From assembly GCA_026709325.1 (NCBI GenBank), contig JAPOTF010000061.1, forward strand, positions 1 through 39,895: 39,895 nt of DNA, given 5' to 3'. Source of the stretch: Roseovarius sp. GTDB lineage: Bacteria > Pseudomonadota > Alphaproteobacteria > Rhodobacterales > Rhodobacteraceae. Below the pieces are notes generated by a model. It made no database searches, was not told the origin of the DNA, and saw nothing but the letters and a program-made list of their open reading frames with translations. The translations under genes were made by a program, and so were the position numbers. Shown piece after piece: positions 402 through 723 of the stretch; positions within the stretch are counted from its first letter, which is position 1, and each line of letters begins with the position of its first letter.

Positions 402-723
402 GCCCCTATAGCTCAGCTGGTAGAGCAACTGATTTGTAGCGGAAGCCTTGGACGCAACACCCAGGGCGAGTTGCAACCCTCAGAGGAAACTCTGGGGTGA
501 CAAAGGTGTCAAATTCGGGGAAACCTGAGCAGGTCATGCTGCTGGCAATCCCGAGCGAAGCCCGCCCAAGCGGGAACGTGTAGAGACTTGACGGCACCCA
601 CCTAAAGCCTTCGGGCCATGGTGAAGAGAAAGTCCAGACCACAAAGGCCCATCCGGGTCGCGGCGAAAGTCGTAGATGGTATGAATCAGTAGGTCCGCGG
701 TTCGAGTCCGTGTGGGGGCACCA
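402..723 (+). tRNA. tRNA-Thr(UGU) interrupted by a group I intron
   Basis: Exon 1 is 402-437 and exon 2 is 684-723; joined they give a 76-nt tRNA with encoded CCA. The acceptor stem pairs GCCCCTA with TGGGGGC. The D-arm has AGCTCAGCTGGTAGAGC. The anticodon arm is ACTGA-TTTGTAA-TCAGT, giving anticodon UGU (435-437), which reads ACA threonine codons. The T-arm is CGCGG-TTCGAGT-CCGTG. The 246-nt intron sits between U36 of the anticodon and A37, the position used by known bacterial group I introns in tRNA-Ile(CAU) and tRNA-Arg(CCU). Without splicing the gene cannot make a functional tRNA. A typical promoter is not obvious just upstream; a weak TTGATC at 367-372 is the best -35 candidate. Confidence 0.95.
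438..683 (+). ncRNA. Self-splicing group I intron (IC3-like) in tRNA-Thr
   Basis: The 246-nt intron follows the U of the anticodon and ends in G (683), as group I introns do. P1 can form between exon TTGT (434-437) and GCAA at 454-457, with the required U-G wobble at the splice site. P3 pairs GGTGTC (505-510) with GGCACC (593-598). The P4/J region has AAATTCGGGGAAACC. P7 pairs GACTT (585-589) with AAGTC (630-634); in the Azoarcus tRNA-Ile intron the same helix is GACTA/TAGTC, so the pair covaries. P8 pairs CACC with GGTG. The overall order closely resembles the Azoarcus intron (GGCACCCACCTAA and GGTGAAG blocks are shared). No homing-endonuclease ORF fits inside. The intron should act as an autocatalytic RNA that joins the tRNA halves; activity itself is inferred. 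Confidence 0.93.

Follow-up and report, generated by a model that had tools for sequence, protein, structure and literature searches.

Group I introns in tRNA genes are well known, and their known bacterial hosts are the tRNAs for Leu, Ile, Arg, and fMet. The window analyzed here, a stretch of 39,895 nucleotides from a Roseovarius genome (GCA_026709325.1, contig JAPOTF010000061.1), contains a tRNA-Thr(UGU) gene that is interrupted in its anticodon loop. This locus raises the questions of whether the insert is a group I intron, whether the cell has another tRNA with the same anticodon, and by what route such an intron could have reached a Thr tRNA.

Bacterial tRNA introns are treated in general in a 2014 review, which places all phage introns known to that date in protein-coding genes (PMC3984707), and for cyanobacteria, alphaproteobacteria, and betaproteobacteria in a further report (PMC4033280). 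The description of tRNAscan-SE 2.0 notes fMet and Ile2 as hosts and records the tRNA-Ile(CAU) intron also in Acidovorax and Burkholderia (PMC8450103). Two kinds of published candidates were set aside. The cyanobacterial Gly, Lys, and Arg tRNA inserts named group I introns measure 22–49 nt in the accessible text of the sources, a length that leaves no space for a group I core; for the group I introns of plastid tRNA-Thr, the same text gives no core structure (PMC9840617; PMC5733544). No earlier bacterial tRNA-Thr group I intron with a core was found in the open-access literature searched, which agrees with the sequence-only reading, in which Thr(UGU) was not among the known hosts. The locus is assessed as an intron of familiar type whose host tRNA is new, part of a little-described group of tRNA introns from alphaproteobacteria and phages, and it adds Thr to the tRNAs that harbor group I introns in bacteria.

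The interrupted gene and its junction

Joining the exons (Table 1) yields a 76-nt tRNA-Thr(UGU) with a full cloverleaf and the anticodon UGU. The joined sequence, the perfect tRNA of the sequence-only reading, is letter-identical to an uninterrupted tRNA-Thr(UGU) gene that a different genus of the family carries (L079). Because the empty site is known from this intact gene, the intron boundaries are fixed, with the insertion after U36 and a G at the intron end. The Rfam group I model, RF00028, matches 421–657 on the forward strand with 51.7 bits (E 1.9e-10), a score barely above the gathering score of 50. Together with the junction and the covariation described below, this match confirms that what interrupts the tRNA-Thr(UGU) anticodon loop is a real group I intron, having the P1, P3, P7, and P8 pairings and the terminal G that had been proposed from the letters alone.

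Table 1. Positions of the interrupted gene, its exons, and the helices of the intron within the window.
Feature	Position	Strand	Partner or description	Basis
Interrupted tRNA-Thr(UGU) gene, whole	402–723	+	intron inside at 438–683	
5′ exon, tRNA-Thr(UGU)	402–437	+	ends at U36	joined exons equal intact L079 gene
Group I intron	438–683	+	246 nt, ends in G683 (omega-G)	RF00028, 51.7 bits; boundaries via intact relative
3′ exon, tRNA-Thr(UGU)	684–723	+	starts at A37, encodes CCA	joined exons equal intact L079 gene
P1, 5′ strand	434–440	+	UUGU then AGC, splice after U437; pairs with 470–476	
Internal guide sequence (P1, 3′ strand)	470–476	+	GUUGCAA	sequence
Extra hairpin in P1 loop	445–467	+	445–451 with 461–467	MFE fold
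P2 hairpin	478–497	+	478–485 with 490–497, GAAA loop	sequence
P3, 5′ strand	505–510	+	pairs with 593–598	covariation
P4 and P5	515–554	+	P4 515–520 with 549–554; P5 524–525 with 544–545	covariation alignment
P6 and P6a	556–578	+	P6 556–557 with 577–578; P6a 561–565 with 570–574	covariation alignment
P7, 5′ strand	585–589	+	GACTT, pairs with 630–634 (AAGTC)	covariation alignment
P3, 3′ strand	593–598	+		covariation alignment
P8	599–623	+	599–602 with 620–623; 607–609 with 614–616	covariation alignment
P7, 3′ strand	630–634	+	AAGTC	covariation alignment
Predicted P9 region	638–680	+	638–641 with 677–680, encloses two small hairpins	sequence and MFE fold

The gene was missed by ARAGORN in its default run and misnamed Ile(TAT) in its intron mode. 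It follows that a standard tRNA finder overlooks or misnames such genes, and that this one is likely to be absent from routine annotation. The intron mode was dropped for anticodon typing on account of the wrong anticodon, and brute-force exon joins scored by ARAGORN were dropped as too noisy. In their place, a strict split-tRNA search was used that requires a U before the intron and a G at its end.

About 270 nt downstream of the gene, an inverted 42-nt copy of the intron-less tRNA-Thr 5′ part lies on the minus strand at 995–1036. Positions 1000–1034 are identical to tRNA positions 1–35 and are followed by one mismatch and AATC. This stretch looks like a tRNA remnant, perhaps left by integration or rearrangement.

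Structure and covariation of the intron

All core helices from P3 to P8 are present, including the P3/P7 pseudoknot. At the splice site, where the 5′ exon ends in U, a U437·G473 wobble is formed within a UUGU/GCAA pairing, and the same pairing is possible in the Thr intron of Tritonibacter mobilis and in both betaproteobacterial Thr introns described below. An alternative P1 with 466–473 could form as well, which would comprise eight pairs, many of them G·U, and likewise place a U·G at the splice site. A hairpin in the P1 loop could be formed in T. mobilis from a different sequence and is lacking in the betaproteobacterial introns.

The pairings were examined in an alignment of 38 homologous cores, with 500 shuffles and with structures whose pairing partners were slid by 1–3 columns as controls. 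Standard pairs fill 96.6% of the pair cells (78.7% when shuffled), double changes occur in 206 cells (65 when shuffled), and the covariation score is 0.442 (0.114 when shuffled); none of the 500 shuffles reaches these values, which are not strict probabilities since shuffling does not keep the relatedness of the sequences. The slid structures do keep it, and in these the standard pairs drop to at most 48.5%. P3 is paired in 100% of the 38 homologues, with double changes at four of its six pairs, and one P6 pair is C-G in 26 sequences and G-C in 12. The variable P7 pair, which the sequence-only reading had taken for a compensatory change relative to Azoarcus, does covary: it is U-A in 17 sequences, A-U in 13, and G-C in 8, and is never broken. 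The MFE z-score is −2.95, and the unconstrained fold holds most of the named helices.

No open reading frame of 100 or more amino acids is listed across 438–683, and 246 nt leaves little room for a homing endonuclease gene. Without a long reading frame, the intron would rely on RNA catalysis, possibly with the aid of host proteins.

Over its core, the intron, a putative IC3 member, aligns with introns from Leu, Arg, Lys, and CAU tRNAs. It shares its anticodon-loop location, core, short length, and lack of a reading frame with the IC3 introns of tRNA-Leu(UAA) in cyanobacteria and plastids. However, those introns follow U34, whereas the window intron follows U36 of a Thr tRNA and has its own guide sequence and its own P6 and P7 letters. 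The tRNA-Ile(CAU) intron of Azoarcus is also an IC3-type ribozyme of the anticodon loop but belongs to a different tRNA. The cellular tRNA(CAU) introns collected here lie after U33 rather than U36, the position that the sequence-only reading had taken to be shared with Ile.

Proposed splicing and the decoding of ACA

The predicted splicing would proceed as follows. After transcription, the intron would fold so that the UUGU of the 5′-exon anticodon loop docks on the GCAA of the guide, forming P1 with its U·G at the splice site. Cleavage after U36 would use an exogenous guanosine bound at P7, and A37 of the 3′ exon would then be joined to give a normal tRNA that reads ACA.

The genome assembly that contains the window is a draft of 196 contigs and is 97.7% complete. 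A whole-genome tRNA scan gave 31 matches, of which 30 were typed, including Thr(CGU) and Thr(GGU), and one (C48:7019) was left untyped; no second tRNA-Thr(UGU) was found among them. An anticodon-arm search allowing up to two mismatches led to Lys and Arg tRNAs or to places without an ARAGORN tRNA, and to no intact Thr(UGU). Under the usual decoding rules, the ACA codon needs the anticodon UGU. Since the interrupted gene is the sole one detected for this anticodon, its correct splicing is probably essential, and ACA decoding should depend on it. With the gene seemingly single-copy and needed for ACA, the ribozyme would sit on an essential path of translation.

It could instead be argued that the gene is a pseudogene carrying a decayed intron, with another tRNA-Thr(UGU) elsewhere doing the work. 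The incompleteness of the draft and the inverted tRNA-Thr fragment downstream could be read in this way, but the exons are perfect, the core helices are all intact, a second Thr(UGU) was not found in the genome, and T. mobilis retains identical exons and the helices despite a divergent intron sequence, making a pseudogene quite improbable. An insertion of another nature, such as a BHB-type intron or a chance sequence, would fit the location, which is close to that of canonical tRNA introns, yet it can be dismissed almost entirely in view of the RF00028 match and the covariation from P3 to P8 with its pseudoknot.

Thr introns in related and distant bacteria

The same tRNA-Thr(UGU) intron is found on megaplasmids of T. 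mobilis (NZ_CP015231.1 and NZ_CP110385.1), a member of the Rhodobacterales, with 83.4% identity over 322 nt. All 76 exon bases are unchanged while the intron varies, and the same helices are kept. The tRNA and the site agree with those of the window, whereas the T. mobilis intron measures 252 nt instead of 246 nt and is carried on a megaplasmid; it scores 34.1 with RF00028, below the cut-off. It is unannotated in the collection used, and the open-access literature searched yielded no description of it.

In a family-wide sample of 395 genomes, one per genus, a full-length match to the interrupted gene was obtained only from the window genome. In many of the others, either different tRNAs carry introns or only the 3′ exon is matched, perfectly, the latter being the pattern of an uninterrupted gene, confirmed as such in one genome, that of L079. 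Outside the family, at least two marine betaproteobacterial records contain Thr(UGU) introns after U36, of 215–216 nt and with RF00028 scores of 57.7 and 73.0. They were found among the listed matches of the genome-wide pattern TTGTN{40,69}core, most of which are due to chance, and the tally of Thr introns is to be read as a minimum.

Introns in other tRNAs and in phages

Other alphaproteobacterial tRNAs also proved to be interrupted. Introns lie after U36 in Thr(GGU) (L043), Thr(CGU) (L293 and L304), and Arg(CCU), and after U34 in Arg(UCU) (L038 and L058) and Leu(UAA). Those of Lys(UUU) (L074, L294, and L297) and Lys(CUU) (L291 and L298) lie mostly after position 35, a placement that was set by rule within runs of U and could be one position out. 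As hosts, Thr(GGU), Thr(CGU), Lys(UUU), Lys(CUU), and Arg(UCU) did not turn up in the open-access literature searched. The window genome itself has a second group I intron, of 251 nt, after U34 of tRNA-Leu(UAA) (G000:C77:24235-24462, L002).

Phage contigs (L198–L213, L242, L254, L275, and L279) contain group I introns in Leu(UAA), Thr, Lys, Arg(UCU), and CAU tRNAs. One phage intron lies in Thr(UGU) after U34 (L202; RF00028 54.5), and two (L207 and L210) have internal reading frames with weak HNH endonuclease matches. An intron with the same core type lies between gp29 and gp30 of Pelagibacter phage HTVC120P (L284), where it seems to split the capsid gene into two annotated coding sequences, and viral introns without tRNA flanks (L214–L280) may be of the same kind. 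Loci that share one core while differing in tRNA and guide, in phages as well as in cells, offer a system for testing how tRNA introns change their target.

Origin of the intron

In trees of the core, which rest on about 150 columns and have many weak branches, the window intron groups with that of T. mobilis and with two phage introns, L203 and L207 (97/91). The group persists when six P6, P7, and J8/7 marker columns are removed (99/88) and when Thr(CGU) and Lys introns are added (97/85), in which case a wider group with the alphaproteobacterial Thr(CGU) and Lys introns appears (92/93). These nearest phage introns lie in different tRNAs, after U36 of tRNA(CAU) and after U34 of tRNA-Leu, and L207 has the HNH-like reading frame. 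The sampling favors phage relatives because the first search pattern used the P7 and J8/7 letters of this very lineage, and the trees show kinship of phage and cellular introns, with transfer conceivable in either direction.

It had been suggested from the sequence alone that a jump between tRNAs having U36 is plausible, a proposal that is supported only in part. The alphaproteobacterial Arg(CCU) introns do lie after U36, but they form a separate clade with P7 GACTG/CAGTC in place of GACTT/AAGTC, and a clade joining the window intron with the Leu and Arg introns of the family is rejected (AU p = 0.005). The same result weighs against local copying, whether the source was the resident Leu(UAA) intron or, through a U36-to-U36 jump, the family's Arg(CCU)-type introns. 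A Leu intron is at hand in the genome and the Arg position fits, yet the P6, P7, and J8/7 letters of the window intron differ from those of all Leu and Arg introns of the family, and such descent is disfavored and very unlikely. Another alternative traces the alphaproteobacterial and betaproteobacterial introns to a single ancient tRNA-Thr(UGU) intron, passed on by descent or by exchange, instead of to independent invasions of one site. The four Thr(UGU) introns share the tRNA, the position, P7 GACTT/AAGTC, and the guide core GCAA, and a single clade for them is not rejected (AU p = 0.225). On the other hand, the best trees separate the alphaproteobacterial from the betaproteobacterial introns, P3 differs, and the full-length match is confined to the window genome in the family sample, so that common ancestry of the four deserves consideration but is rather doubtful.

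The sequence comparisons argue strongly for an IC3-like group I ribozyme in the only detectable tRNA-Thr(UGU) of the genome, which would self-splice to yield the ACA-reading tRNA and shares its lineage with phage tRNA introns and with introns of Thr(CGU) and Lys tRNAs. It probably reached tRNA-Thr by horizontal transfer and a jump between tRNA anticodon loops. The anticodon arms of Thr(UGU) and Lys(UUU) in the window genome are identical at 15 of 17 positions, which would ease a jump between these two tRNAs. As a more speculative extension, phage tRNA introns, some with HNH reading frames, might form a carrier pool that repeatedly invades bacterial tRNAs, with the guide rewritten for each anticodon loop. 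The alphaproteobacterial targets would then include the full set of three Thr tRNAs together with Lys, Arg(UCU), Arg(CCU), and Leu, and the window intron would represent one arrival in a sole-copy gene.

Related sequences on plasmids

Partial matches of 60–80% to the query occur on about 1,265 plasmids, mainly enterobacterial. On pCTX-M3 (NC_004464.2, L048), the match at 1386–1684 corresponds to a tRNA-Leu(UAA) gene that lacks annotation and contains a group I intron of 213 nt; aac(3)-IId and a gene for an AAA ATPase adjoin it. In the tree, this intron lies closest to Leu introns from chromosomes of the window's family, which hints, for this one plasmid, that the stretch may stem from that family.
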